Source: Chaetoderma sp. LZ-2023a (taxonomy: Eukaryota; Mollusca; Caudofoveata; Chaetodermatida; Chaetodermatidae). Taken from it: DNA of 64,000 nucleotides. The notes below the pieces were generated by a model. That model saw only the letters and a list, made by a program, of their open reading frames with translations, was not told the origin of the DNA and searched no databases. Positions within the stretch are counted from its first letter, which is position 1; every line of letters begins with the position of its first letter. A program made the translations under genes and the position numbers. Below, piece by piece: positions 3-56,237 of the stretch. The DNA lies in contig CM067360.1 in NCBI GenBank assembly GCA_034401795.1, forward strand, positions 118,809,704 to 118,873,703, in the 5' to 3' direction.

Positions 3-677
3 CTCTCCATCCCTCCTCCTCCTCTTCCTCCTACGCTTCATCTCTCTTCTCCTCACGCACCTACTTCTGCTCCTCTTCTTCTGTCTCCACCTCCTCTCCC
101 TCCTATGGAGAAAAATAGTAACCTGTCTGACAGGAAGTTTGCTAAGTACCGTCATCAATCGCATAGCAAGGGCATGTGGAGGATCCCCAGAATCACCAAA
201 AAGATTCTGATGATAGGGACCTCTAATCTAGCCCGAATTGATTTAGATGTCCATCCTGACATCCAGGTTGAGTGCTATCCTGGTGCCGCATTATCACATT
301 TCAGAACAATGGCTATGCGACACCAGGATGGCCCTAGCCCGGAGAAGATCATCTTGAATATTGGCATCAACTCCAAAAATGAGCATCCAACCAAAGCCTC
401 AAGCCATTTACGGTTCATGGCTCGTGAATTTAAAAACACCTTCCCTAATGCGGAGTTGCACTTTGCTGAGATTAACTTCTCTGATAGCTTGTCAGACAGG
501 CAAAGGTACTGTCTCAAGCGTATCAACGAATCAGCAAGGTCCAACTGCCACGTTGATAAGGTCATCCCCAAAATTTCTGATGCGAATTTTCATGTTGAGA
601 AGGATAGAATCCATTGGACGAAAGAAACAGCTAATTGTATTTATAACCATTGGTTGACGGTACTTAGTTTAAACTAA
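3..677 (+). CDS. PLE ORF1 with SGNH/GDSL-hydrolase-like domain (5' end outside window)
   Basis: The first ATG is at 105 and gives 190 aa, but the frame stays open upstream to the window edge through a proline/serine-rich stretch, so the true start may lie further left. Numbered from the ATG at 105, the SGNH blocks appear in order and at normal spacing: GTS with the candidate nucleophile S40, G60 in a PGAALSH segment, N89 in NIGIN, and D167-x-x-H170 near the end. This is the catalytic set of SGNH esterases, so hydrolytic activity is plausible but unproven. Esterase-like domains of this kind are known to me in ORF1 of CR1-type LINEs and in giant rotifer PLE derivatives. The ORF stops with TAA at 675-677 and overlaps ORF2 by ten bases in a different frame, with a frameshift-type heptamer at the overlap. 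Its substrate is unknown; a role in RNP or membrane interaction would be speculation. Confidence 0.8.
   Translation, partial: LSIPPPPLPPTLHLSSPHAPTSAPLLLSPPPLPPMEKNSNLSDRKFAKYRHQSHSKGMWRIPRITKKILMIGTSNLARIDLDVHPDIQVECYPGAALSHFRTMAMRHQDGPSPEKIILNIGINSKNEHPTKASSHLRFMAREFKNTFPNAELHFAEINFSDSLSDRQRYCLKRINESARSNCHVDKVIPKISDANFHVEKDRIHWTKETANCIYNHWLTVLSLN
668..674 (+). promoter_or_regulatory. Candidate -1 programmed ribosomal frameshift site TTTAAAC
   Basis: In the ORF1 frame the codons read AGT TTA AAC TAA, so the heptamer is phased T TTA AAC, a classical X XXY YYZ slippery site, and the next codon is the ORF1 stop. The -1 frame opens exactly at 668 (an in-frame TAG sits at 665-667) and runs uninterrupted into ORF2. 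Possible downstream stimulators found by eye are a 5-bp hairpin CCTAA(701-705)/TTAGG(713-717), nested in a stem CAAGG(686-690)/CCTTG(724-728), 11 nt after the heptamer. No folding was run. The ATG at 678, directly after the stop, is in the ORF1 frame and reads only ten codons before a TAG, so stop-restart there cannot produce ORF2. Confidence 0.7.
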
Positions 678-3034
678 ATGTGGGTCAAGGCAATAGCTCC
701 CCTAACATAGGATTAGGAACAAACCTTGTCAATTTAGCAGCTGACTATGATCTCTCACCATCTGAAAAATCAATTCTCGATCGTGGTCTTACTTTTATAC
801 CAACTCCAAAACCAAAAACAGGATTAGATTTGCTTTTAGACACAGGTCTTATTGAAGTAGCTCATTTTGGTCATTCAGTAAAAATAGCCCATCATTTTCG
901 AAATTTAAATGGAGTGTCAAAACCATTCACTGGAAAATCCGGTTGGGACCCTCCAGATAGGCTAGTTGATGACAATGTTAAAGCAACCATAAAAACGGTT
1001 GCTGGTATAGCCAGATCATTGCCAGTTACAAACAATAAGCAAAACCTTTCATTTCTCGAACAACAGGCTATCAACAAATTACGTAGAAATCAAAATATTA
1101 TTATAAAACCAGCCGATAAAGGTTCAGCAACTGTGATTATGTCTAGAGAAAACTACATCCGCGAGGCCGAAAGGCAGTTAACTAACAACAGGCATTACAG
1201 AAAACTTGATAATTTAATTTGGCCTCAAAACCGACAAAATTTCATTGAAATACTTAATTCATTGCATACAGATAAGTACATCGATAAGAAACAGCTAAAG
1301 TATCTGCTAGGTGAGAATAATCCACAAAATCGGACATTTTATATCTTGCCTAAAATCCATAAACCTATCAGCACCTGGTTAGATCCATTGACACCTCCTG
1401 GACGACCCATCATTTCAGACTGTGGCAGTGAGTCTTATGGCATTTCAGAATATATTGATTACTATTTAAAGCCCATTGCTAATAGACACAAGAGCTTTCT
1501 CAAAAACACTGAACACTTTCTTTCAAAGTTATCCAAATTGTCAGTTCCGAAAGATGCATATTTAGTCACATTAGACATAGATGCTATGTATACCAATATA
1601 GATATTGATGCTGGAGTCAATGCTATTAAGAATTCTTTTGTCAAATTTCCTGATCCAGATCGACCAGACACGGACATTCTAAAATTATTAGAGCTAAGTC
1701 TTAAAGGAAACGATTTCCAATTTAATGGTGAAAATTACCTTCAAATCTGTGGATGCGCAATGGGTAAACGATTCAGCCCAAATTTTGCCACGATTTATGT
1801 TGCGGAGTGGGAAGAGGAGGCACTGAACAAATCAACCAAAAAGCCTCTTCTTTACCTCAGATATCTAGATGACATCTTCATAGTTTGGCAACATTCAGAA
1901 GAAGACTTTTGGGAATTTTTTCGCATTTTAAATAACCAAGATTCGAATATCAAGCTAAAAGCTACTATTAGTGGAACATCTGTTGACTTTTTAGATGTCA
2001 CGATCTATAAGGGTCCTCAATTTGATTCCTCTGGAAAATTAGAATATAAAGTATTCTTTAAGCCAACAGACTCACATCAGCTGCTTCCCAAAAAATCATT
2101 TCATCCTCCACACACATTTAAAGGTTTGATCAAATCGCAAATCATAAGATTTTTTCGAAACTCTAGCAACAGGCAAAATCTGAATAGTGCATGCTCTACT
2201 CTGTTTGATGCTTTGAAAGCACGAGGCTATTCAGCCCGTTTTCTTCGAAAAATTAAAGCAGACACCATCAATGAGCTTGAAAATCTAAAACCTCATAGCG
2301 GACCCGAGTTTGAGCCTGTCCAAATTAAACACAATAAACCAATCATGTGCGATGGATCAGTTTCTAAATGCGACAAAAATAGATGCAAAGTAAACAACTA
2401 TATTGTAAACCAACAAACATTCCTGAGCTTTCAAACTAAAAATGAATATCATATCCGAACTAATATGCATTGTGATTCTGAGAATGTAGTTTATTTGATC
2501 AATTGTGCCCTTTGCCAGAAACAGTATGTTGGTGAAACAAAAAATGCATTTAGAGTGCGTGCTAGACGCCACGTTTCTGATATTAACACCTCAGCAGATA
2601 CGCCAATTGCTCAACATTTCCAACTTCCTGATCATTCAGTTGAACATCATTTTGAAATCATGCCAATAGAACAGATTCCGACCTTCGATAGTGAGGAAGA
2701 AACGAGTTCGTTTCGCAAAATCCGAGAAGGCCATTGGATTAGAACACTCCAAACAAAAGCACCATTTGGAATAAATGTAGATTCGGGAATATCACAAAAG
2801 AACAAAATTATCCCATTTCAACTCATATACAATAGACGTAATGTTGAATTAGCAAAAACCATGAAAGACGAATATTCACAGTTGCAATCTAAATTAAAGG
2901 AACCGATCAAAGCACGACCAGTAATAGCTTACAATAGAAATCCAAACCTGAAAGATTTGCTAGTAAGATCAAAGTTAGACCTTATGGTTCCTGATAACAA
3001 TGACAAGGTTTCATCCCTCCCTACCTATTCTTAA
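668..3034 (+). CDS. PLE ORF2: reverse transcriptase with C-terminal GIY-YIG endonuclease (full length)
   Basis: This is the intact polymerase of copy A. Residues are numbered from codon 680, which is GTG and not a likely eukaryotic start; the first in-frame ATG is at 1139 (residue 154), inside conserved sequence. The N-terminal segment LSPSEKSILDRGLTFIP is PLE-like. RT blocks follow: KPADKG 143-148, LPKIHKP 223-229, GRPIIS 241-246, the first catalytic Asp D299 in TLDIDAMYTNI, MGKRFSPN from 361, and YLDD 395-398. A thumb-like KPTDSHQLL segment follows near 463. A cysteine-rich linker (C609, C612 and upstream Cys) leads into GIY-YIG: VYL 604-606, YVG 616-618, Arg625/627, and the terminal Glu E683. 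P470 replaces a His kept in every long copy. RT primes from an EN nick in this family. Translation probably needs a -1 shift from ORF1. The clade is not assigned. Confidence 0.95.
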   Translation, partial: FKLNVGQGNSSPNIGLGTNLVNLAADYDLSPSEKSILDRGLTFIPTPKPKTGLDLLLDTGLIEVAHFGHSVKIAHHFRNLNGVSKPFTGKSGWDPPDRLVDDNVKATIKTVAGIARSLPVTNNKQNLSFLEQQAINKLRRNQNIIIKPADKGSATVIMSRENYIREAERQLTNNRHYRKLDNLIWPQNRQNFIEILNSLHTDKYIDKKQLKYLLGENNPQNRTFYILPKIHKPISTWLDPLTPPGRPIISDCGSESYGISEYIDYYLKPIANRHKSFLKNTEHFLSKLSKLSVPKDAYLVTLDIDAMYTNIDIDAGVNAIKNSFVKFPDPDRPDTDILKLLELSLKGNDFQFNGENYLQICGCAMGKRFSPNFATIYVAEWEEEALNKSTKKPLLYLRYLDDIFIVWQHSEEDFWEFFRILNNQDSNIKLKATISGTSVDFLDVTIYKGPQFDSSGKLEYKVFFKPTDSHQLLPKKSFHPPHTFKGLIKSQIIRFFRNSSNRQNLNSACSTLFDALKARGYSARFLRKIKADTINELENLKPHSGPEFEPVQIKHNKPIMCDGSVSKCDKNRCKVNNYIVNQQTFLSFQTKNEYHIRTNMHCDSENVVYLINCALCQKQYVGETKNAFRVRARRHVSDINTSADTPIAQHFQLPDHSVEHHFEIMPIEQIPTFDSEEETSSFRKIREGHWIRTLQTKAPFGINVDSGISQKNKIIPFQLIYNRRNVELAKTMKDEYSQLQSKLKEPIKARPVIAYNRNPNLKDLLVRSKLDLMVPDNNDKVSSLPTYS

Positions 3035-3988
<954 letters not shown>

Positions 3989-4467
3989 TTTAGAGTGCGT
4001 GCCACGTTTCTGATATTAACACCTCAGCAGATACGCCAATTGCTCAACATTTCCAACTTCCGGATCATTCAGTTGAACATCATTTTGAAATCATGCCAAT
4101 AGAACAGATTCCGACCTTCGATAGTGAGGAAGAAACGAGTTCGTTTCGCAAAATCCGAGAGGGCCATTGGATTAGAACACTCCAAACAAAAGCACCATTT
4201 GGAATAAATGTAGATTCGGGAATATCACAAAAGAACACAATTATCCCATTTCAACTCATATACAATAGACGTAATGTTGAATTAGCAAAAACCATGAAAG
4301 ACGAATATTCACAGTTGCAATCTAAATTAAAGGAACCGATCAAAGCACGACCAGTAATAGCTTACAATAGAAATCCAAACCTGAAAGATTTGCTAGTAAG
4401 ATCAAAGTTAGACCTTATAGTTCCTGATAACAATGACAAGGTTTCATCCCTCCCTACCTATTCTTAA
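3989..4467 (+). pseudogene. Copy B: short 5'-truncated PLE ORF2 remnant
   Basis: It starts at tttagagtgcg, matching copy A 2549 (ORF2 codon 624), straight after the (ACAG)n linker. A 7-bp deletion relative to copy A (around 2561-2568) shifts the frame, so only the last 124 residues from the Met at 4093 remain open. It keeps the terminal endonuclease segment with the catalytic-type Glu (REGHW) but has lost RT and the GIY and YIG motifs. Subfamily markers are cttccgg, cgagagg and Ile in LDLIVPD. Confidence 0.9.
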
Positions 4468-4566
4468 ATAAATCTAATCCCAACCAAAATCAATGGTGGG
4501 GCAACATGAAATCATATCCGTAGGACATCTTTTAATTTTGTGTCTGCAAAAGTATGTGTGCGTACG

Positions 4567-4598
<32 letters not shown>

Positions 4599-4926
4599 TT
4601 CGTTCGTTCGTTCGTTCGTTCGTTCGTTCGTGCGTGCGTTCGTTCGTTCGGGCGTCCGGGCGTTTGTTCGTATGTGTGTATGTGTGTGGGTGTGTGCTCG
4701 TACATCCGCACGTGTGTGCATCTATACTTGCGTGGGTGTATGTGTGCGTGTGTGTATGTGGGTGTGGGTGCATTAATTCGTGAGTACATTAGTGCGCGGG
4801 TGTGTGCGTGCATGCATTCGTGCGTTCGTTCGTGCATGCGTTCATGCATGCATTATTGCGTGCATTCGTGCATGTATTACTGTGGGCATGTGTTATTGCA
4901 TGCATTCGTGCATTCGTTCAGATGTG

Positions 4927-4970
<44 letters not shown>

Positions 4971-5181
4971 GGCGTGCATTCGTGTGTGTGTGATTTCTCT
5001 ATAATGTAGGATCAATCCCAGCCTTTACCTGTTAAAGCGACCTACTGATAAGTTCATTTTACCCCAACTAATCTCAAGGGGGGACCACTCTAAGTAAATC
5101 TAAACTTGGTCTCGATAGGACAAATTTAGGTAAAGAAATTTGTAATTAAATTCCTGTGCCAATGCGTTTTTTTCAATGTAA

Positions 5182-5217
<36 letters not shown>

Positions 5218-5280
5218 TGTCAGACTGTCAGACTGCCAGACTGCCAGCCTGCCAGCCTGCCAGCCTGCCAGCCTGCCAGC
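4468..5280 (+). repeat. Copy B 3' region, type 1, with compound linker
   Basis: The UTR is followed by a GTGC/TTCG microsatellite of type 1 (gtgcgcggg and ctgtgggcatg markers, short final GTGC run, aatccc in the tail) and the tail to 5183. The linker then grades from (ACAG)n through two CAGACTGT and two CAGACTGC units into CAGCCTGC repeats. The next copy joins at ctaaaattatt. Confidence 0.9.
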
Positions 5281-6635
5281 TAAAATTATTAGAGCTAAGT
5301 CTTAAAGGAAACGATTTCCAATTTAATGGTGAAAATTACCTTCAAATCTGTGGATGCGCAATGGGTAAACGATTCAGCCCAAATTTTGCCACGATTTATG
5401 TTGCGGAGTGGGAAGAGGAGGCACTGAACAAATCAACCAAAAAGCCTCTTCTTTACCTCAGATATCTAGATGACATCTTCATAGTTTGGCAACATTCAGA
5501 AGAAGACTTTTGGGAATTTTTTCGCATTTTAAATAACCAAGATTCGAATATCAAGCTAAAAGCTACTATTAGTGGAACATCTGTTGACTTTTTAGATGTC
5601 ACGATCTATAAGGGTCCTCAATTTGATTCCTCTGGAAAATTAGAATATAAAGTATTCTTTAAGCCAACAGACTCACATCAGCTGCTTCACAAAAAATCAT
5701 TTCATCCTCCACACACATTTAAAGGTTTGATCAAATCGCAAATCATAAGATTTTTTCGAAACTCTAGCAACAGGCAAAATCTGAATAGTGCATGCTCTAC
5801 TCTGTTTGATGCTTTGAAAGCACGAGGCTATTCAGCCCGTTTTCTTCGAAAAATTAAAGCAGACACCATCAATGAGCTTGAAAATCTAAAACCTCATAGC
5901 GGACCCGAGTTTGAGCCTGTCCAAATTAAACACAATAAACCAATCATGTGCGATGGATCAGTTTCTAAATGCGACAAAAATAGATGCAAAGTAAACAACT
6001 ATATTGTAAACCAACAAACATTCCTGAGCTTTCAAACTAAAAATGAATATCATATCCGAACTAATATGCATTGTGATTCTGAGAATGTAGTTTATTTGAT
6101 CAATTGCGCCCTTTGCCAGAAACAGTATGTTGGTGAAACAAAAAATGCATTTAGAGTGCGTGCTAGACGCCACGTTTCTGATATTAACACCTCAGCAGAT
6201 ACGCCAATTGCTCAACATTTCCAACTTCCTGATCATTCAGTTGAACATCATTTTGAAATCATGCCAATAGAACAGATTCCGACCTTCGATAGTGAGGAAG
6301 AAACGAGTTCGTTTCGCAAAATCCAAGAAGGCCATTGGATTAGAACACTCCAAACAAAAGCACCATTTGGAATAAATGTAGATTCGGGAATATCACAAAA
6401 GAACAAAATTATCCCATTTCAACTCATATACAATAGACGTAATGTTGAATTAGCAAAAACCATGAAAGACGAATATTCACAGTTGCAATCTAAATTAAAG
6501 GAACCGATCAAAGCACGACCAGTAATAGCTTACAATAGAAATCCAAACCTGAAAGATTTGCTAGTAAGATCAAAGTTAGACCTTATGGTTCCTGATAACA
6601 ATGACAAGGTTTCATCCCTCCCTACCTATTCTTAA
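5281..6635 (+). pseudogene. Copy C: long 5'-truncated PLE ORF2 remnant
   Basis: It begins at the base matching copy A 1680 (codon 334). The frame is open to the normal stop; the first Met (5361) is an internal Met of ORF2 and gives 424 aa. It keeps YLDD, the thumb-like region and the whole GIY-YIG domain, but lacks the finger motifs and the first catalytic Asp, so it cannot be a working RT. It carries Gln before the conserved Glu (IQEGHW). The conserved His replaced by P470 in copy A is present here. It differs from copy A at only about three sites over 1.35 kb. Confidence 0.9.
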
Positions 6636-6738
6636 ATAAATCTAATCCCAACCAAAATCAATGGTGGGGCAACATGAAATCATATCCGTAGGACATCTTT
6701 TAATTTTGTGTCTGCAAAAGTATGTGTGCGTACGTGTG

Positions 6739-6782
<44 letters not shown>

Positions 6783-7118
6783 TTCGTTCGTTCGTTCGTT
6801 CGTTCGTTCGTTCGTTCGTTCGTGCGTGCGTTCGTTCGTTCGGGCGTCCGGGCGTTTGTTCGTATGTGTGTATGTGTGTGGGTGTGTGCTCGTACATCCG
6901 CACGTGTGTGCATCTATACTTGCGTGGGTGTATGTGTGCGTGTGTGTATGTGGGTGTGGGTGCATTAATTCGTGAGTACATTAGTGCGCGGGTGTGTGCG
7001 TGCATGCATTCGTGCGTTCGTTCGTGCATGCGTTCATGCATGCATTATTGCGTGCATTCGTGCATGTATTACTGTGGGCATGTGTTATTGCATGCATTCG
7101 TGCATTCGTTCAGATGTG

Positions 7119-7154
<36 letters not shown>

Positions 7155-7456
7155 GGCGTGCATTCGTGTGTGTGTGATTTCTCTATAATGTAGGATCAAT
7201 CCCAGCCTTTACCTGTTAAAGCGACCTACTGATAAGTTCATTTTACCCCAACTAATCTCAAGGGGGGACCACTCTAAGTAAATCTAAACTTGGTCTCGAT
7301 AGGACAAATTTAGGTAAAGAAATTTGTAATTAAATTCCTGTGCCAATGCGTTTTTTTCAATGTAAAGACAGACAGACAGACAGACAGACAGACTGTCAGA
7401 CTGTCAGACTGCCAGACTGCCAGCCTGCCAGCCTGCCAGCCTGCCAGCCTGCCAGC
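6636..7456 (+). repeat. Copy C 3' region, type 1, compound linker
   Basis: UTR, GTGC then TTCG runs (longer than in copy B), type-1 markers, tail ending at 7367, and an ACAG to CAGACTGT to CAGACTGC to CAGCCTGC linker into a long copy. Confidence 0.9.
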
Positions 7457-8811
7457 TAAAATTATTAGAGCTAAGTCTTAAAGGAAACGATTTCCAATTT
7501 AATGGTGAAAATTACCTTCAAATCTGTGGATGCGCAATGGGTAAACGATTCAGCCCAAATTTTGCCACGATTTATGTTGCGGAGTGGGAAGAGGAGGCAC
7601 TGAACAAATCAACCAAAAAGCCTCTTCTTTACCTCAGATATCTAGATGACATCTTCATAGTTTGGCAACATTCAGAAGAAGACTTTTGGGAATTTTTTCG
7701 CATTTTAAATAACCAAGATTCGAATATCAAGCTAAAAGCTACTATTAGTGGAACATCTGTTGACTTTTTAGATGTCACGATCTATAAGGGTCCTCAATTT
7801 GATTCCTCTGGAAAATTAGAATATAAAGTATTCTTTAAGCCAACAGACTCACATCAGCTGCTTCACAAAAAATCATTTCATCCTCCACACACATTTAAAG
7901 GTTTGATCAAATCGCAAATCATAAGATTTTTTCGAAACTCTAGCAACAGGCAAAATCTGAATAGTGCATGCTCTACTCTGTTTGATGCTTTGAAAGCACG
8001 AGGCTATTCAGCCCGTTTTCTTCGAAAAATTAAAGCAGACACCATCAATGAGCTTGAAAATCTAAAACCTCATAGCGGACCCGAGTTTGAGCCTGTCCAA
8101 ATTAAACACAATAAACCAATCATGTGCGATGGATCAGTTTCTAAATGCGACAAAAATAGATGCAAAGTAAACAACTATATTGTAAACCAACAAACATTCC
8201 TGAGCTTTCAAACTAAAAATGAATATCATATCCGAACTAATATGCATTGTGATTCTGAGAATGTAGTTTATTTGATCAATTGTGCCCTTTGCCAGAAACA
8301 GTATGTTGGTGAAACAAAAAATGCATTTAGAGTGCGTGCTAGACGCCACGTTTCTGATATTAACACCTCAGCAGATACGCCAATTGCTCAACATTTCCAA
8401 CTTCCTGATCATTCAGTTGAACATCATTTTGAAATCATGCCAATAGAACAGATTCCGACCTTCGATAGTGAGGAAGAAACGAGTTCGTTTCGCAAAATCC
8501 GAGAAGGCCATTGGATTAGAACACTCCAAACAAAAGCACCATTTGGAATAAATGTAGATTCGGGAATATCACAAAAGAACAAAATTATCCCATTTCAACT
8601 CATATACAATAGACGTAATGTTGAATTAGCAAAAACCATGAAAGACGAATATTCACAGTTGCAATCTAAATTAAAGGAACCGATCAAAGCACGACCAGTA
8701 ATAGCTTACAATAGAAATCCAAACCTGAAAGATTTGCTAGTAAGATCAAAGTTAGACCTTATGGTTCCTGATAACAATGACAAGGTTTCATCCCTCCCTA
8801 CCTATTCTTAA
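7457..8811 (+). pseudogene. Copy D: long 5'-truncated PLE ORF2 remnant
   Basis: Same breakpoint as copy C. The frame is intact to the stop; the 424-aa stretch from the Met at 7537 keeps YLDD and a full GIY-YIG domain with REGHW. The finger region and first catalytic Asp are absent. It is followed by a type-2 3' region, unlike copy C. Confidence 0.9.
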
Positions 8812-9744
<933 letters not shown>

Positions 9745-10223
9745 TTTAGAGTGCGTGCCACGTTTCTGATATTAACACCTCAGCAGATACGCCAATTGCT
9801 CAACATTTCCAACTTCCGGATCATTCAGTTGAACATCATTTTGAAATCATGCCAATAGAACAGATTCCGACCTTCGATAGTGAGGAAGAAACGAGTTCGT
9901 TTCGCAAAATCCGAGAAGGCCATTGGATTAGAACACTCCAAACAAAAGCACCATTTGGAATAAATGTAGATTCGGGAATATCACAAAAGAACAAAATTAT
10001 CCCATTTCAACTCATATACAATAGACGTAATGTTGAATTAGCAAAAACCATGAAAGACGAATATTCACAGTTGCAATCTAAATTAAAGGAACCGATCAAA
10101 GCACGACCAGTAATAGCTTACAATAGAAATCCAAACCTGAAAGATTTGCTAGTAAGATCAAAGTTAGACCTTATGGTTCCTGATAACAATGACAAGGTTT
10201 CATCCCTCCCTACCTATTCTTAA
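9745..10223 (+). pseudogene. Copy E: short PLE ORF2 remnant
   Basis: Same breakpoint and 7-bp deletion as copy B. The open part runs from the Met at 9849, 124 aa, with Met in LDLMVPD and cgagaagg, unlike B. It is nearly identical to copy I, 6,850 bp away. Confidence 0.9.
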
Positions 10224-10575
10224 ATAAATCTAATCCCCAACCAAAATCAATGGTGGGGCAACATGAAATCATATCCGTAGGACATCTTTTAATTTTGTGT
10301 CTGCAAAAGTATGTGTGCGTACGTGTGTGCGTGCGTGCGTGCGTTCGTTCGTGCGTGCGTTCGTTCGTTCGTGCGTCCGGGCGTTTGTTCGTATGTGTGT
10401 ATGTGTGTGGGTGTGTGCTCGTACATCCGCACGTGTGTGCATCTATACTTGCGTGGGTGTATGTGTGCGTGTGTGTATGTGGGTGTGGGTGCATTAATTC
10501 GTGAGTACATTAGTGCGTGGGTGTGTGCGTGCATGCATTCGTGCGTTCGTTCGTGCATGAACATCGTCGTGTCGT
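10224..10575 (+). repeat. Copy E 3' region, cut by the assembly gap
   Basis: The UTR has one extra C (taatcccc at about 10233) compared with the other copies. The microsatellite matches copy I until about 10559; the last 16 bases before the N run match no other copy and look like contig-end error. Confidence 0.85.
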
Positions 10576-11075
10576 NNNNNNNNNNNNNNNNNNNNNNNNN
10601 NNNNNNNNNNNNNNNNNNNNNNNNNNNNNNNNNNNNNNNNNNNNNNNNNNNNNNNNNNNNNNNNNNNNNNNNNNNNNNNNNNNNNNNNNNNNNNNNNNNN
10701 NNNNNNNNNNNNNNNNNNNNNNNNNNNNNNNNNNNNNNNNNNNNNNNNNNNNNNNNNNNNNNNNNNNNNNNNNNNNNNNNNNNNNNNNNNNNNNNNNNNN
10801 NNNNNNNNNNNNNNNNNNNNNNNNNNNNNNNNNNNNNNNNNNNNNNNNNNNNNNNNNNNNNNNNNNNNNNNNNNNNNNNNNNNNNNNNNNNNNNNNNNNN
10901 NNNNNNNNNNNNNNNNNNNNNNNNNNNNNNNNNNNNNNNNNNNNNNNNNNNNNNNNNNNNNNNNNNNNNNNNNNNNNNNNNNNNNNNNNNNNNNNNNNNN
11001 NNNNNNNNNNNNNNNNNNNNNNNNNNNNNNNNNNNNNNNNNNNNNNNNNNNNNNNNNNNNNNNNNNNNNNNNNNN
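10576..11075. other. Assembly gap of exactly 500 N
   Basis: The round length suggests an arbitrary-size scaffold gap. The sequence on its right repeats the sequence from 4225 onward, and the sequence on its left matches the sequence ending near 17408. Confidence 0.98.
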
Positions 11076-11318
11076 TCACAAAAGAACACAATTATCCCAT
11101 TTCAACTCATATACAATAGACGTAATGTTGAATTAGCAAAAACCATGAAAGACGAATATTCACAGTTGCAATCTAAATTAAAGGAACCGATCAAAGCACG
11201 ACCAGTAATAGCTTACAATAGAAATCCAAACCTGAAAGATTTGCTAGTAAGATCAAAGTTAGACCTTATAGTTCCTGATAACAATGACAAGGTTTCATCC
11301 CTCCCTACCTATTCTTAA
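11076..11318 (+). pseudogene. Copy F: PLE ORF2 3' end after the gap
   Basis: Only the C-terminal coding part is present. It has the markers of copy B (aacacaatt and Ile in LDLIVPD) and aligns with 4225-4467 at a constant 6,851-bp offset. It is probably the same molecule as copy B placed twice. Confidence 0.85.
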
Positions 11319-11417
11319 ATAAATCTAATCCCAACCAAAATCAATGGTGGGGCAACATGAAATCATATCCGTAGGACATCTTTTAATTTTGTGTCTGCAA
11401 AAGTATGTGTGCGTACG

Positions 11418-11449
<32 letters not shown>

Positions 11450-11777
11450 TTCGTTCGTTCGTTCGTTCGTTCGTTCGTTCGTGCGTGCGTTCGTTCGTTC
11501 GGGCGTCCGGGCGTTTGTTCGTATGTGTGTATGTGTGTGGGTGTGTGCTCGTACATCCGCACGTGTGTGCATCTATACTTGCGTGGGTGTATGTGTGCGT
11601 GTGTGTATGTGGGTGTGGGTGCATTAATTCGTGAGTACATTAGTGCGCGGGTGTGTGCGTGCATGCATTCGTGCGTTCGTTCGTGCATGCGTTCATGCAT
11701 GCATTATTGCGTGCATTCGTGCATGTATTACTGTGGGCATGTGTTATTGCATGCATTCGTGCATTCGTTCAGATGTG

Positions 11778-11821
<44 letters not shown>

Positions 11822-12032
11822 GGCGTGCATTCGTGTGTGTGTGATTTCTCTATAATGTAGGATCAATCCCAGCCTTTACCTGTTAAAGCGACCTACTGAT
11901 AAGTTCATTTTACCCCAACTAATCTCAAGGGGGGACCACTCTAAGTAAATCTAAACTTGGTCTCGATAGGACAAATTTAGGTAAAGAAATTTGTAATTAA
12001 ATTCCTGTGCCAATGCGTTTTTTTCAATGTAA

Positions 12033-12068
<36 letters not shown>

Positions 12069-12131
12069 TGTCAGACTGTCAGACTGCCAGACTGCCAGCC
12101 TGCCAGCCTGCCAGCCTGCCAGCCTGCCAGC
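11319..12131 (+). repeat. Copy F 3' region, type 1 (equals copy B region)
   Basis: It matches 4468-5280 at offset 6,851 in microsatellite length, tail and linker. Microsatellite lengths vary between the other copies, so equal length here argues for the same locus. Confidence 0.88.
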
Positions 12132-13486
12132 TAAAATTATTAGAGCTAAGTCTTAAAGGAAACGATTTCCAATTTAATGGTGAAAATTACCTTCAAATCT
12201 GTGGATGCGCAATGGGTAAACGATTCAGCCCAAATTTTGCCACGATTTATGTTGCGGAGTGGGAAGAGGAGGCACTGAACAAATCAACCAAAAAGCCTCT
12301 TCTTTACCTCAGATATCTAGATGACATCTTCATAGTTTGGCAACATTCAGAAGAAGACTTTTGGGAATTTTTTCGCATTTTAAATAACCAAGATTCGAAT
12401 ATCAAGCTAAAAGCTACTATTAGTGGAACATCTGTTGACTTTTTAGATGTCACGATCTATAAGGGTCCTCAATTTGATTCCTCTGGAAAATTAGAATATA
12501 AAGTATTCTTTAAGCCAACAGACTCACATCAGCTGCTTCACAAAAAATCATTTCATCCTCCACACACATTTAAAGGTTTGATCAAATCGCAAATCATAAG
12601 ATTTTTTCGAAACTCTAGCAACAGGCAAAATCTGAATAGTGCATGCTCTACTCTGTTTGATGCTTTGAAAGCACGAGGCTATTCAGCCCGTTTTCTTCGA
12701 AAAATTAAAGCAGACACCATCAATGAGCTTGAAAATCTAAAACCTCATAGCGGACCCGAGTTTGAGCCTGTCCAAATTAAACACAATAAACCAATCATGT
12801 GCGATGGATCAGTTTCTAAATGCGACAAAAATAGATGCAAAGTAAACAACTATATTGTAAACCAACAAACATTCCTGAGCTTTCAAACTAAAAATGAATA
12901 TCATATCCGAACTAATATGCATTGTGATTCTGAGAATGTAGTTTATTTGATCAATTGCGCCCTTTGCCAGAAACAGTATGTTGGTGAAACAAAAAATGCA
13001 TTTAGAGTGCGTGCTAGACGCCACGTTTCTGATATTAACACCTCAGCAGATACGCCAATTGCTCAACATTTCCAACTTCCTGATCATTCAGTTGAACATC
13101 ATTTTGAAATCATGCCAATAGAACAGATTCCGACCTTCGATAGTGAGGAAGAAACGAGTTCGTTTCGCAAAATCCAAGAAGGCCATTGGATTAGAACACT
13201 CCAAACAAAAGCACCATTTGGAATAAATGTAGATTCGGGAATATCACAAAAGAACAAAATTATCCCATTTCAACTCATATACAATAGACGTAATGTTGAA
13301 TTAGCAAAAACCATGAAAGACGAATATTCACAGTTGCAATCTAAATTAAAGGAACCGATCAAAGCACGACCAGTAATAGCTTACAATAGAAATCCAAACC
13401 TGAAAGATTTGCTAGTAAGATCAAAGTTAGACCTTATGGTTCCTGATAACAATGACAAGGTTTCATCCCTCCCTACCTATTCTTAA
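12132..13486 (+). pseudogene. Copy G: long PLE ORF2 remnant (equals copy C)
   Basis: The frame is open, with 424 aa from the Met at 12212 and the IQEGHW variant found otherwise only in copy C. The offset is exactly 6,851 bp. Confidence 0.9.
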
Positions 13487-13589
13487 ATAAATCTAATCCC
13501 AACCAAAATCAATGGTGGGGCAACATGAAATCATATCCGTAGGACATCTTTTAATTTTGTGTCTGCAAAAGTATGTGTGCGTACGTGTG

Positions 13590-13633
<44 letters not shown>

Positions 13634-13969
13634 TTCGTTCGTTCGTTCGTTCGTTCGTTCGTTCGTTCGTTCGTGCGTGCGTTCGTTCGTTCGGGCGTCC
13701 GGGCGTTTGTTCGTATGTGTGTATGTGTGTGGGTGTGTGCTCGTACATCCGCACGTGTGTGCATCTATACTTGCGTGGGTGTATGTGTGCGTGTGTGTAT
13801 GTGGGTGTGGGTGCATTAATTCGTGAGTACATTAGTGCGCGGGTGTGTGCGTGCATGCATTCGTGCGTTCGTTCGTGCATGCGTTCATGCATGCATTATT
13901 GCGTGCATTCGTGCATGTATTACTGTGGGCATGTGTTATTGCATGCATTCGTGCATTCGTTCAGATGTG

Positions 13970-14005
<36 letters not shown>

Positions 14006-14307
14006 GGCGTGCATTCGTGTGTGTGTGATTTCTCTATAATGTAGGATCAATCCCAGCCTTTACCTGTTAAAGCGACCTACTGATAAGTTCATTTTACCCC
14101 AACTAATCTCAAGGGGGGACCACTCTAAGTAAATCTAAACTTGGTCTCGATAGGACAAATTTAGGTAAAGAAATTTGTAATTAAATTCCTGTGCCAATGC
14201 GTTTTTTTCAATGTAAAGACAGACAGACAGACAGACAGACAGACTGTCAGACTGTCAGACTGCCAGACTGCCAGCCTGCCAGCCTGCCAGCCTGCCAGCC
14301 TGCCAGC
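13487..14307 (+). repeat. Copy G 3' region, type 1 (equals copy C region)
   Basis: Same microsatellite structure, tail and compound linker as 6636-7456. Confidence 0.88.
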
Positions 14308-15662
14308 TAAAATTATTAGAGCTAAGTCTTAAAGGAAACGATTTCCAATTTAATGGTGAAAATTACCTTCAAATCTGTGGATGCGCAATGGGTAAACGAT
14401 TCAGCCCAAATTTTGCCACGATTTATGTTGCGGAGTGGGAAGAGGAGGCACTGAACAAATCAACCAAAAAGCCTCTTCTTTACCTCAGATATCTAGATGA
14501 CATCTTCATAGTTTGGCAACATTCAGAAGAAGACTTTTGGGAATTTTTTCGCATTTTAAATAACCAAGATTCGAATATCAAGCTAAAAGCTACTATTAGT
14601 GGAACATCTGTTGACTTTTTAGATGTCACGATCTATAAGGGTCCTCAATTTGATTCCTCTGGAAAATTAGAATATAAAGTATTCTTTAAGCCAACAGACT
14701 CACATCAGCTGCTTCACAAAAAATCATTTCATCCTCCACACACATTTAAAGGTTTGATCAAATCGCAAATCATAAGATTTTTTCGAAACTCTAGCAACAG
14801 GCAAAATCTGAATAGTGCATGCTCTACTCTGTTTGATGCTTTGAAAGCACGAGGCTATTCAGCCCGTTTTCTTCGAAAAATTAAAGCAGACACCATCAAT
14901 GAGCTTGAAAATCTAAAACCTCATAGCGGACCCGAGTTTGAGCCTGTCCAAATTAAACACAATAAACCAATCATGTGCGATGGATCAGTTTCTAAATGCG
15001 ACAAAAATAGATGCAAAGTAAACAACTATATTGTAAACCAACAAACATTCCTGAGCTTTCAAACTAAAAATGAATATCATATCCGAACTAATATGCATTG
15101 TGATTCTGAGAATGTAGTTTATTTGATCAATTGTGCCCTTTGCCAGAAACAGTATGTTGGTGAAACAAAAAATGCATTTAGAGTGCGTGCTAGACGCCAC
15201 GTTTCTGATATTAACACCTCAGCAGATACGCCAATTGCTCAACATTTCCAACTTCCTGATCATTCAGTTGAACATCATTTTGAAATCATGCCAATAGAAC
15301 AGATTCCGACCTTCGATAGTGAGGAAGAAACGAGTTCGTTTCGCAAAATCCGAGAAGGCCATTGGATTAGAACACTCCAAACAAAAGCACCATTTGGAAT
15401 AAATGTAGATTCGGGAATATCACAAAAGAACAAAATTATCCCATTTCAACTCATATACAATAGACGTAATGTTGAATTAGCAAAAACCATGAAAGACGAA
15501 TATTCACAGTTGCAATCTAAATTAAAGGAACCGATCAAAGCACGACCAGTAATAGCTTACAATAGAAATCCAAACCTGAAAGATTTGCTAGTAAGATCAA
15601 AGTTAGACCTTATGGTTCCTGATAACAATGACAAGGTTTCATCCCTCCCTACCTATTCTTAA
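14308..15662 (+). pseudogene. Copy H: long PLE ORF2 remnant (equals copy D)
   Basis: The frame is open with 424 aa from the Met at 14388. It matches copy D at offset 6,851, with YLDD and GIY-YIG kept and the RT N-terminal half missing. Confidence 0.9.
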
Positions 15663-16594
<932 letters not shown>

Positions 16595-17073
16595 TTTAGA
16601 GTGCGTGCCACGTTTCTGATATTAACACCTCAGCAGATACGCCAATTGCTCAACATTTCCAACTTCCGGATCATTCAGTTGAACATCATTTTGAAATCAT
16701 GCCAATAGAACAGATTCCGACCTTCGATAGTGAGGAAGAAACGAGTTCGTTTCGCAAAATCCGAGAAGGCCATTGGATTAGAACACTCCAAACAAAAGCA
16801 CCATTTGGAATAAATGTAGATTCGGGAATATCACAAAAGAACAAAATTATCCCATTTCAACTCATATACAATAGACGTAATGTTGAATTAGCAAAAACCA
16901 TGAAAGACGAATATTCACAGTTGCAATCTAAATTAAAGGAACCGATCAAAGCACGACCAGTAATAGCTTACAATAGAAATCCAAACCTGAAAGATTTGCT
17001 AGTAAGATCAAAGTTAGACCTTATGGTTCCTGATAACAATGACAAGGTTTCATCCCTCCCTACCTATTCTTAA
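16595..17073 (+). pseudogene. Copy I: short PLE ORF2 remnant (equals copy E)
   Basis: The 7-bp deletion is present; the open part from the Met at 16699 is 124 aa, with Met in LDLMVPD as in copy E. Confidence 0.9.
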
Positions 17074-17492
17074 ATAAATCTAATCCCAACCAAAATCAAT
17101 GGTGGGGCAACATGAAATCATATCCGTAGGACATCTTTTAATTTTGTGTCTGCAAAAGTATGTGTGCGTACGTGTGTGCGTGCGTGCGTGCGTTCGTTCG
17201 TGCGTGCGTTCGTTCGTTCGTGCGTCCGGGCGTTTGTTCGTATGTGTGTATGTGTGTGGGTGTGTGCTCGTACATCCGCACGTGTGTGCATCTATACTTG
17301 CGTGGGTGTATGTGTGCGTGTGTGTATGTGGGTGTGGGTGCATTAATTCGTGAGTACATTAGTGCGTGGGTGTGTGCGTGCATGCATTCGTGCGTTCGTT
17401 CGTGCATGCGTTCATGCATGCATTATTGCGTGCATTCGTGCATGTATTACTGTGTGCATGTGTTATTGCATGCATTCGTGCATTCGTTCAGA

Positions 17493-49851: not shown

Positions 49852-51519
49852 CACCTGTGCAAAAGTTATGCACCACCCTATTTTTACGCACATGCGAGGG
49901 TATATTCATGTGCTATGAAGAAAGCAATAACATAAACAGTTATGTACCCATCCATCTTAGTGCAAGAGGTAATAATGCAACTAGAAGAATGCTGATTATG
50001 ATGGTGGGGAAACACTGTATGTTTTTGTTTGAACTTGAAAACGAGGCCTGAATATGGTTACGTTGACACAACTGACAACTATTGCCCTACAGTTGACACA
50101 CGTGGCTAGATTGTCATTAATGGTGTCTGAAAACGAAGTTTAACATCTGTGCACGAGTTTGAGACTGTCATTATTAATACCGGGTATATCCACCTTGTGC
50201 CTGGATGACGGCCTGGATACGACGTCTCATGCTGGTCACCAACCGACTGATACGCCATTGTGGTATTCGTTGCCATTCAAGATGGAGTGCGTCTGTTAAT
50301 TCCTGTAGGTTCTGCACAGGAGGACCCCTCCTTCTCACCATGTTTCCCAGAATGTCCCAGATATGCTCAATAGGGTTCATGTCAGGGCTCCTTGCTGGCC
50401 ATGGTAGGGTTTCGATGGCATTCTGGCGGAGGTATTCATGCACAGCTCTAGCACGATGTGGTCGGGCGTTGTCATCCATGAATATAGGGTGGGTTCCAGG
50501 TGCATGATTTACAAAATGAGGGACCACAACTCTATCCAGTATGGAATCTTGATATCTTTGTCCATTTAGTGTTCCAGGTACAGTCAACAGATCCAGCTTA
50601 CACTCAAATGAGATGCACCCCCATATCATAACGGAACCTCCACCACATGGAACTTCTTCCCTGATGTTACGTTGGTCGTACGCCGTGCGTCTGGACCTCC
50701 ATACACGAGTTCGACCATCTGTGGCATGAAGCAGGAACCGACTTTCATCGGACCAGTGTACCCGTCTCCAGGATCTCATGTTCCAGTGTCTTCTTTCGTT
50801 GCACCACCTCAGACGCTCCTCTTTGTGGTGTGCAGTGAGGAGAGGACGTCTGACAGGTCTCCTAGCTTTCATGCCAGCAGCATACAGTCTCCTTTTGACG
50901 ATAGACATTGACACTCTATTGCGCGTTTCCCATTGCTGGCTGAGCACTCTGCTGTTGGTGAATGGAGATCTCCTAACAAGGCGTACTAGGGCTCGATCAT
51001 CACGGGCAGTAGTCTTCTTCGGTCTTCCAGATCTAGGCCTGTCCTTCACCTCGTTAGTTTGCCCATGTTTTGCAATCAAACGACTGATTACAGTATGGTT
51101 AATGTTCAGCTGTCTGCCAATCTCTCTGCATGACATACCAGTGGTATGCATGCCTATGATTTGCCATTGCTCACGATCACATAACCTTCGTCTTGCCATA
51201 GCGGTTCACAATCAAGAGCTAATTCTCTCGGTGAATTTATTCTACAAATAAACCACGGTCATGAACACAAAATTCCTAATATTGTCGCCTAAATCTGTAT
51301 GTAATGTTCTACACCTCAAACTGGACTTTTACATAACTGAACACATGTGCTGTTTCCTACCACGCACGGACATCAAGCGGCGTGAAGTCATGCAAGCATG
51401 TGCATTTCGTACTTGGAATTATGTCAGCTAACGCGGGGACAAAAAGTATGGCAGCCTAGTTGTACCATCATGTTTCTACGTTCTATTGTTTTTGCTGGTG
51501 CTTAACTTTTGCACAGGTG
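49852..51519 (-). mobile_element. Tc1-like DNA transposon, structurally complete
   Basis: 1,668 bp. The terminal inverted repeats begin CACCTGTGCAAAAGTTA and are 24 bp with one mismatch. TA dinucleotides flank both ends (49850-49851 and 51520-51521), as expected for Tc1/mariner insertion. It encodes one intact transposase on the minus strand and has a second, broken copy at 54583-56237. All components for autonomous mobility are present in sequence. Confidence 0.95.
50174..51199 (-). CDS. Tc1-like DD34E transposase, intact
   Basis: 341 aa, the usual length for Tc1 transposases, without stops or frameshifts. The N-terminus (about 1-115) shows paired-type helix-turn-helix features (MSCREIGRQLNINHTVISRL) followed by a basic GRPR-like RPRSGRPKK segment. 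The catalytic triad is D151 (HWSDESRF), D243 (FMDDNARPH) and E278 (DMNPIEHIWD) with 34 residues between D243 and E278, so DD34E. Glycine-rich GGGSVMIWG at 186-194 is also typical. It cuts and pastes its element at TA sites in the nucleus. The start Met at 51199 gives the expected N-terminus. The element TIRs lie 320 bp on each side. It is the only intact non-PLE gene in the window. Confidence 0.95.
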   Translation of the reverse strand: MARRRLCDREQWQIIGMHTTGMSCREIGRQLNINHTVISRLIAKHGQTNEVKDRPRSGRPKKTTARDDRALVRLVRRSPFTNSRVLSQQWETRNRVSMSIVKRRLYAAGMKARRPVRRPLLTAHHKEERLRWCNERRHWNMRSWRRVHWSDESRFLLHATDGRTRVWRSRRTAYDQRNIREEVPCGGGSVMIWGCISFECKLDLLTVPGTLNGQRYQDSILDRVVVPHFVNHAPGTHPIFMDDNARPHRARAVHEYLRQNAIETLPWPARSPDMNPIEHIWDILGNMVRRRGPPVQNLQELTDALHLEWQRIPQWRISRLVTSMRRRIQAVIQAQGGYTRY

Positions 51520-54582: not shown

Positions 54583-56237
54583 CACCTGTGCAAAAGTTAA
54601 GCACCACCCTATTTTTACGCACATGCGAGGGTATATTCATGTGCTATGAAGAAAGCAATAGCATAAACATTTATGTACCCATCCATCTTAGTGCAAGAGG
54701 TAATAATGTAACTAGAGGAATGCTGATTATGATGGTGGGGAAACACTGTATGTTTTTGTTTGAACTTGAAAACGAGGCCTGAATATGGTTACGTTGACAC
54801 AACTGACAACTATTGCCCTACAGTTGACACACGTGGCTAGATTGTCATTAATGGTGTCTGAAAACGAAGTTTAACATCTGTGCACGAGTTTGAGACTGTC
54901 ATTATTAATACCGGTATATCCACCTTGTGCCTGGATGATGGCCTGGACACGACGTCTCATGCTGGTCACCAACCGACTGATACGCCATTGTGGTATTCGT
55001 TGCCATTCAAGATGGAGTGCGTCTGTTAGTTCCTGTAGGTTCTGCACAGGAGGATCCCTCCTTCTCACCATGTTTCCCAGAATGTCCCAGATATGCTCAA
55101 TAGGGTTCATGTCAGGGCTCCTTGCTGGCCATGGTAGGGTTTCGATGGCATTCTGGCGGAGGTATTAATGCACAGCTCTAGCACGATGTGGTCGGGCGTT
55201 GTCATCCATGAATATAGGGTGGGTTCCAGGTGCATGATTTACAAAATGAGGGACCACAACTCTATCCAGTATGGAATCTTGATATCTTTGTCCATTTAGT
55301 GTTCCAGGTACAGTCAACAGATCCAGCTTACAATCAAATGAGATGCACCCCCATATCATAACGGAACCTCCACCAAATGGAACTTCTTCCATGATGTTAC
55401 GTTGGTCGTACGCCGTGCGTCTGGACCTCCATACACGAGTTCGACCATCTGTGGCATGAAGCAGGAACCGACTTTCATCGGACCAGTGTACCCGTCTCCA
55501 GGATCTCATGTTCCAGTGTCTTCTTTCGTTGCACCACCTCAGACGCTCCTCTTTGTGGTGTGCAGTGAGGAGAGGACGTCTGACAGGTCTCCTAGCTTTC
55601 ATGCCAGCAGCATACAGTCTCCTTTTGACGTAGACATTTACACTCTATTGCGCGTTTCCCATTGCTGGCTGAGCACTCTGCTGTTGGTGAATGGAGATCT
55701 CCTAACAAGGCGTACTAGGGCTCGATCATCACGGGCAGTAGTCTTCTTCGGTCTTCCAGATCTAGGCCTGTCCTTCACCTCGTTAGTTTGCCAATGTTTT
55801 GCAATCAAACGACTGATTACAGTATGGTTAATGTTCAGCTGTCTGCCGATCTCTCTGCATGACATACCAGTGGTATGCATGCCTATGATTTGCCATTTCA
55901 CACGATCACTTAACCTTCGTCTTGCCATAGCGGTTCACAATCAAGAGCTAATTCTCTCTGTACAAATAAACCACGGTCATGAACACAAAATTCCTAATCT
56001 TGTCGCCTAAATCTGTATGTAATGTTCTACACCTCAAACTGGACTTTTACATAACTGAACACGTGTGCTGTTTCCCGCCACGCACGGACATCAAGCGGCG
56101 TGAAGTCATGCATGCATGTGCATTTCGTACTTGGAATTATGTCAGCTAACGCGGGGACAAAAAGTATGGCAGCCTAGTTGTACCATCATGTTTCTACGTT
56201 CTATTGTTTTTGCTGGTGCTTAACTTTTGCACAGGTG
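54583..56237 (-). mobile_element. Tc1-like DNA transposon, second copy, defective
   Basis: 1,655 bp with the same TIRs (CACCTGTGCAAAAGTTA at the left end and its complement at 56237) and TA flanks (54581-54582, 56238-56239). It differs from the intact copy at scattered bases, an 11-bp deletion near 55955 and two 1-bp deletions. Confidence 0.95.
54871..55928 (-). pseudogene. Tc1-like transposase, broken
   Basis: The frame is disrupted at three points compared with the intact copy. A 1-bp deletion near 55629 breaks it after residue 96, in the DNA-binding half. A G-to-T type change at 55165-55167 turns the Glu of HEYL (E255) into a stop, between D243 and E278. A 1-bp deletion near 54913 alters the last residues. 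The catalytic motifs HWSDES, FMDDNARPH and DMNPIEHIWD are still readable in separate pieces. Any product would lack the third catalytic residue, so it is inactive. Confidence 0.95.

Follow-up and report, generated by a model that had tools for sequence, protein, structure and literature searches.

Retroviruses and coronaviruses, IBV among the latter, produce a low-ratio fusion to their polymerase by -1 ribosomal frameshifting, between gag and pol or between ORF1a and ORF1b, at heptamers of the same class as the one described here. U_UUA_AAC is named as the IBV site, and TTTAAAC, GGGAAAC and AAAAAAC are among the heptamers named as most shifty with mammalian ribosomes (PMC5009743, excerpts). 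Endonuclease-bearing Penelope-like elements (PLEs) encode, like the element of this study, a reverse transcriptase (RT) followed by a GIY-YIG endonuclease. In the rotifer PLEs Athena/Terminon, the PLE polymerase is associated with GDSL/SGNH ORFs (PMC5408684, excerpts); unlike our element, they are endonuclease-deficient, telomere-associated and composed of many ORFs. The SGNH esterase of non-LTR ORF1s has also been found in PLEs of RepBase (PMC3905857, excerpts). The main text of that paper does not contain the word frameshift, whereas the esterase ORF studied here ends in a putative slip site. A paper on bdelloid PLEs treats frameshifts, in its available parts, as copy defects (PMC3846280). 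The PMC full texts searched, a corpus outside of which RepBase lies, contained neither a programmed frameshift linking a PLE polymerase to its SGNH ORF1 nor an account of how two-ORF PLEs express their RT. Retroelement frameshifting, PLEs and SGNH ORF1s are each known; new with respect to these papers is their combination, a conserved slip site joining an SGNH ORF1 to a PLE polymerase.

The window, that is, the whole stretch of 64 kb analysed, contains one such junction (Table 1). Its features suggest an endonuclease-bearing PLE that very probably obtains its polymerase by programmed -1 ribosomal frameshifting, which would be an old feature of a broad clade. The codons in the ORF1 frame are TTA (669-671), AAC (672-674) and TAA (675-677), preceded by T at 668. 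A heptamer of the pattern X XXY YYZ thus lies in 0 phase with ORF1 in the window, which also has, like the related element L001 (see below), a -1 ORF open through the site and a 0-frame stop close by. TTTAAAC occurs twice on the plus strand of the 64 kb (668 and 38412) and six times on the minus strand.

Table 1 Features of the junction between ORF1 and ORF2 in the window
Feature	Position	Strand	Remarks
ORF1	105..677	+	Open from base 3 and truncated at the window start; first ATG at 105
C-terminal end of ORF1, ...HWLTVLSLN-stop		+	SGNH-hydrolase-like domain
TAG stop of the -1 frame	665..667	+	Directly upstream of the heptamer; agrees with the ORF boundary
Slippery heptamer T TTA AAC	668..674	+	Seen in the DNA; shared with L001; deduced in relatives
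TAA, 0-frame stop of ORF1	675..677	+	Adjoins the heptamer
ORF2, -1 frame, 788 codons	668..3034	+	Putative PLE-type reverse transcriptase and GIY-YIG endonuclease
Expected place of a stimulatory RNA structure	675..760	+	None significant in the window copy

Since the TAG lies directly upstream, the -1 ORF opens exactly at the heptamer, and no reading in the -1 frame can lead into ORF2 from farther upstream. With TTT (668) counted as codon 1, the ORF2 frame has its first ATG at codon 158 (position 1139), and in the alignment this Met forms the end of the conserved KPADKGSATVIM stretch of ORF2. A GTG in the ORF2 frame is present at 680. The preliminary description had named codon 154 for the first ATG, a number that fits a count from this GTG; apart from the number, the lack of an early ATG was confirmed. 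Its other readings of the window hold as well: the heptamer lies in the phase T TTA AAC and is followed by the ORF1 stop, the -1 frame opens at the heptamer and runs for 788 codons, and the ATG at 678 is out of the ORF2 frame, as it sits in that of ORF1. The junction is present once in the window; the element's 13 other nucleotide matches are truncated at the 5' end and do not contain it.

ORF2 matches the Pfam family RVT_1 at the cut-off (E 7.1e-7, 29.6 bits), and the YLDD motif is visible in its translation. C-terminal to the RT, GIY-YIG scored slightly below its cut-off (E 3.9e-4, 21.1 bits vs. 22.6 bits), and PF01541 is precomputed on many of the listed ORF2 homologues, P0006 among them (1246 passed among 7998 candidates scored; 120 of them were listed). 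We take the pair of RT and GIY-YIG domains as the mark of a Penelope-like element. This pair points to an endonuclease-bearing PLE, a class assigned here by domains. The ORF2 sequence had no match in PDB. In a test for hammerhead ribozymes, no Rfam match at gathering score was present in the window, in which the 5' end of the element is cut off.

The affiliation of ORF1 to the SGNH-type proteins, already proposed in the preliminary description, is supported by profile and fold. By the match of a 4-row ORF1 profile to PDB 4c1b (ZfL2-1; E 1.6e-5), ORF1 resembles the SGNH ORF1s of non-LTR elements. A 67-row profile gave no match against PDB, and 4c1b is absent among the 50 matches listed from a further search behind the SGNH assignment. 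The fold of ORF1 agrees with that of SGNH proteins. In the 67 rows of alignment A3 (window, P0001, L002 and 64 of the 99 ORF1 homologues), S40, G60, N89, D167 and H170 are invariant, and we take these residues to represent the SGNH blocks (catalytic Ser, Gly, Asn, His). The Asp of GDS is replaced by Thr in the window ORF1. PF13472 (Pfam GDSL) was detected at E<=0.01 in 6 of the 67 family members, the two that were looked at scoring below the curated cut-off; the window sequence had no match. The homologue P0001 shares 99% identity over 82% of the window ORF1 and ends with the same LSLN. Named ORF1 homologues include those of the teleosts Oreochromis, Sarotherodon, Channa, Scophthalmus and Solea. 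In fish-type ORF1s (P0122 and its kin, alignment A4), an N-terminal region is conserved around GNAxNWGYTTLxILEDHY, possibly a Gag-like or RNA-binding part.

Genome contigs of bacterial assemblies contained five related loci, L001 to L005. L003 to L005 were more distant and excluded from the comparison of junctions, and junction DNA was read in three elements, those of the window, L001 and L002. The five loci, filed under Epulopiscium, Enterovibrio, a Bathymodiolus symbiont and others, appear to be animal-type retroelements that likely derive from host contamination. One ORF1, P0122, is entered in NCBI as a bacterial hypothetical protein. The viral contigs scanned contained no relatives, and a search of phages and plasmids with P0039 gave no match.

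L001, filed under Epulopiscium, shares about 40% RT identity with the window element. It encodes a 616-codon SGNH ORF1, which had no Pfam match at E 0.1, and carries TTTAAAC at 3119-3125 in the 0 phase, with the RT in the -1 frame. Its ORF2 frame overlaps ORF1 upstream of the heptamer without an ATG, the first one being located only at codon 371, and the TAA of ORF1 is the fifth codon past the heptamer instead of the next one as in the window. The 2600 bases of L001 that were checked occur again, identical, 5441 bases further on. L002, filed under Enterovibrio, has kept both ORFs, long and open, and their -1 relation, and reads TTTATGT at the position expected for the heptamer. The ORF1 stop is thereby overlapped by an ATG of the ORF2 frame (ATGTTAG, within 1085-1096), which may mark either a decayed site or a change from frameshifting to reinitiation. 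The expectation that heptamer, stop and frames recur in relatives was thus borne out for L001, with the stop five codons on, and for the frames but not the heptamer of L002. An ATG-started ORF2 in relatives, which the preliminary description had considered as evidence against frameshifting, is possible in L002 and finds no parallel in the late first ATG of L001. P0157, an ORF1 ending in QLGL, may resemble L002.

Conservation of the site was further followed in the protein sequences of both ORFs. TTTAAAC followed by T encodes Phe-Lys-Leu in the -1 frame. For the ORF2 homologues, the alignment covered residues 1 to 330; 98 of the 120 left the three columns of the site unfilled and are uninformative, and 22 reached the site. 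Seventeen of these 22 read F/G/K-K-[L/R] (FKL 14, FKR 1, GKL 1, KKL 1), the -1 reading of TTTAAAC, GGGAAAC or AAAAAAC (XXX AAA C), a count that, like those below, covers related and hence non-independent homologues and deduces the site beyond the three elements from protein letters. The other five are non-canonical (TFL, FFC, IKL, FFL and the unclear P0084). Alignment A1 comprised 36 of the 120 homologues chosen by eye, and a run with all 120 gave the identical 22 sequences; between runs, P0084 changed from AKT to LPL and P0089 from GFF to FFL, both remaining misses. In the alignment, the homology of the ORF2s starts at the site, and the residues upstream look unrelated.

On the side of ORF1, TTA AAC encodes Leu-Asn in the 0 frame. 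Among the 85 homologues with the C-terminal block (14 of the 99 lack it and were left out), 78 end in W-x3-Leu-Asn; the window and P0001, with W-x5-LN, stand outside both sets. The remaining seven have VN (3), LG (2), EH (1) or LK (1) at this place. In the 85 sequences, the site is followed by 0 to 16 residues. In 71 of the 78, LN is followed by L, F, W, C, S or the protein end (background 25%), chemically unlike outcomes that are all possible Tnn codons, and the exceptions are seven Met. This bias fits a Leu codon CTN kept in the other frame. A residue without any NNT codon precedes LN in 7 of the 78, and the full TTTAAAC is therefore impossible in those; this test of base 1 is non-discriminating, the first x position likewise having such residues in just 4 of 78.

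If Leu-Asn in the 0 frame and Phe-Lys in the -1 frame are encoded in one element, only TTTAAA[C/T] is possible, a statement to be read with the ORF1 and ORF2 homologues counted as separate sets, unpaired by contig. The dual-frame constraint spans these 7-8 bases, and the site appears to be constrained in both frames among the relatives. The reading of the proteins in both frames agrees with a conserved heptamer, with exceptions in 5 of 22 ORF2 and 7 of 85 ORF1 homologues. The conserved Trp of ORF1 provides a further register: if ORF1 has W-x3-LN, the ORF2 frame should show [M/L/V][G/A/V/D/E] at positions -4 and -3 relative to the site. This was the case in 11 of 19 ORF2 sequences (3 of the 22, with fewer than four residues before the site, were not counted), compared with 645 of 15641 positions (4.1%) deeper in the same proteins. 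Other upstream registers tried gave 0-2 matches. Downstream, register +2 scored 9 of 22, because the conserved Leu falls in that register, and the remaining registers 0-4 of 22. The varied "start" residues that gene callers assign to many ORF2s thus look like ORF1 read out of frame.

In an RT tree of 39 sequences, midpoint-rooted for drawing only, the canonical reading occurred in both branches of the deepest split, one of which includes L001. A group of P0018, P0089 and P0084 and the single rows P0009, P0029 and L002 were without it. ORF1 tails (P0122-P0220) often read L-K-A-P just past the slip site, with A at the third position in 37 of 65 and P at the fourth in 42 of 65. Their conservation is above that expected of a dispensable tail, perhaps reflecting base pairing or a constraint from the ORF2 frame.

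In the mechanism that we propose, most ribosomes would complete ORF1 with its C-terminal SGNH esterase-like domain and terminate at the TAA at 675. A minority, with tRNA-Leu on UUA and tRNA-Asn on AAC, would slip one base back, the tRNAs would re-pair on UUU and AAA, and reading would go on in ORF2. The product would be a fusion of ORF1, RT and endonuclease in a Gag-Pol-like proportion, a low ratio that we liken to that of retroviruses and coronaviruses and infer here. On this view, a broad PLE clade would have had the heptamer, the -1 relation of its frames and an ORF1 stop close by since early in its history. What the sequences show is the anatomy, the phase and a conservation that holds in both frames; that slippage takes place, how often it does so and what the fusion serves for are deduced. 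Frameshifting as the economical route to the RT, put forward in the preliminary description, thereby gains support from L001 and the protein reading in both frames, as far as sequences can tell. It seems rather likely, with less confidence, that -1 frameshifting at UUUAAAC-type sites is ancestral in a large clade of animal PLEs, whose RT is kin to telomerase, as a Gag-Pol-like economy with an SGNH esterase as "Gag", and that lineages like L002 later switched to an overlapping ATG at the same position.

Unlike at retroviral and coronavirus sites, no conserved stimulatory pseudoknot was found in this PLE (window and L001). The preliminary description had suggested folding 675-760. In the window, MFE folding of the downstream RNA gave nothing better than shuffles (z -0.17 for 86 nt, -0.31 for 136 nt), and the score in a home-made scan for H-type pseudoknots was attained in 38 of 60 shuffles. 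L001 folded somewhat better than shuffles across 136 nt (z -3.00), which did not hold for 86 nt (z -1.10), and its pseudoknot score was attained in 5 of 60 shuffles; this weak candidate has its first stem beginning past a 6-nt spacer.

A separate translation of ORF2, by termination-reinitiation or by internal initiation near the ORF1 stop and with an incidental heptamer, appears improbable for the window element. L002, in which the ORF2-frame ATG over the ORF1 stop replaces the heptamer, speaks for it. The predicted ORF2s of P0011, P0030, P0046 and P0113 also start with Met, four codons before the site, which is where an out-of-frame Trp codon would yield ATG, and the window offers the GTG at 680. 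Separate initiation would, however, not preserve Leu-Asn in the 0 frame together with Phe-Lys-Leu in the -1 frame, and it has to contend with the TAG directly before the heptamer and with first ORF2-frame ATGs as late as codon 158 in the window and 371 in L001.

Still less probable is a joining of ORF1 and ORF2 by splicing, or an ORF2 expressed from its own transcript begun inside the element. A splice junction would not account for the dual-frame constraint on 7-8 bases, and the frames overlap at a canonical heptamer, in the same phase in L001, even though a spliceosomal intron inside the ORF has been reported for one Penelope copy (PMC3846280, excerpts). That the two frames result from a private indel in a decayed copy, whose ancestor had a single fused frame, is hardly credible: the window contains just one junction copy, but P0001 ends in LSLN as the window does, and 78 of the 85 ORF1 homologues have LN near the end. 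This explanation, named in the preliminary description as one that would refute its reading, was rejected on the same two-frame arrangement in L001 and L002.

If programmed frameshifting is indeed used, such PLEs would owe to the conserved slip site a fixed ratio of ORF1 to RT and a polymerase tethered to ORF1, and would stand beside retroviruses in their expression strategy. The site would also account for the varied ORF2 N-termini of gene callers. Annotators should link the two ORFs of such elements through a -1 shift and avoid trimming to the first ATG.

The region 3060-26300 of the window holds 13 more 3' pieces of the same element. Six begin at element base 1679 and six at 2568, two fixed breakpoints, and the thirteenth abuts an N gap. 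Simple repeats of the GCCAGCCT or CAGA type lie before the pieces; GTGC-type repeats come after them in the cases inspected on that side. The segments 4225-10559 and 11076-17408, which flank a 500-N gap (10576-11075), are 99.97% identical, and part of this region may therefore be an assembly duplication. Farther downstream, positions 50174-51205 of the minus strand contain a 343-codon open frame for a Tc1/mariner-type transposase (HTH_Tnp_Tc3_2, DDE_3), and a partial second Tc1/mariner-type copy, judged by eye from its translation, lies at 55165-55644 on the same strand.
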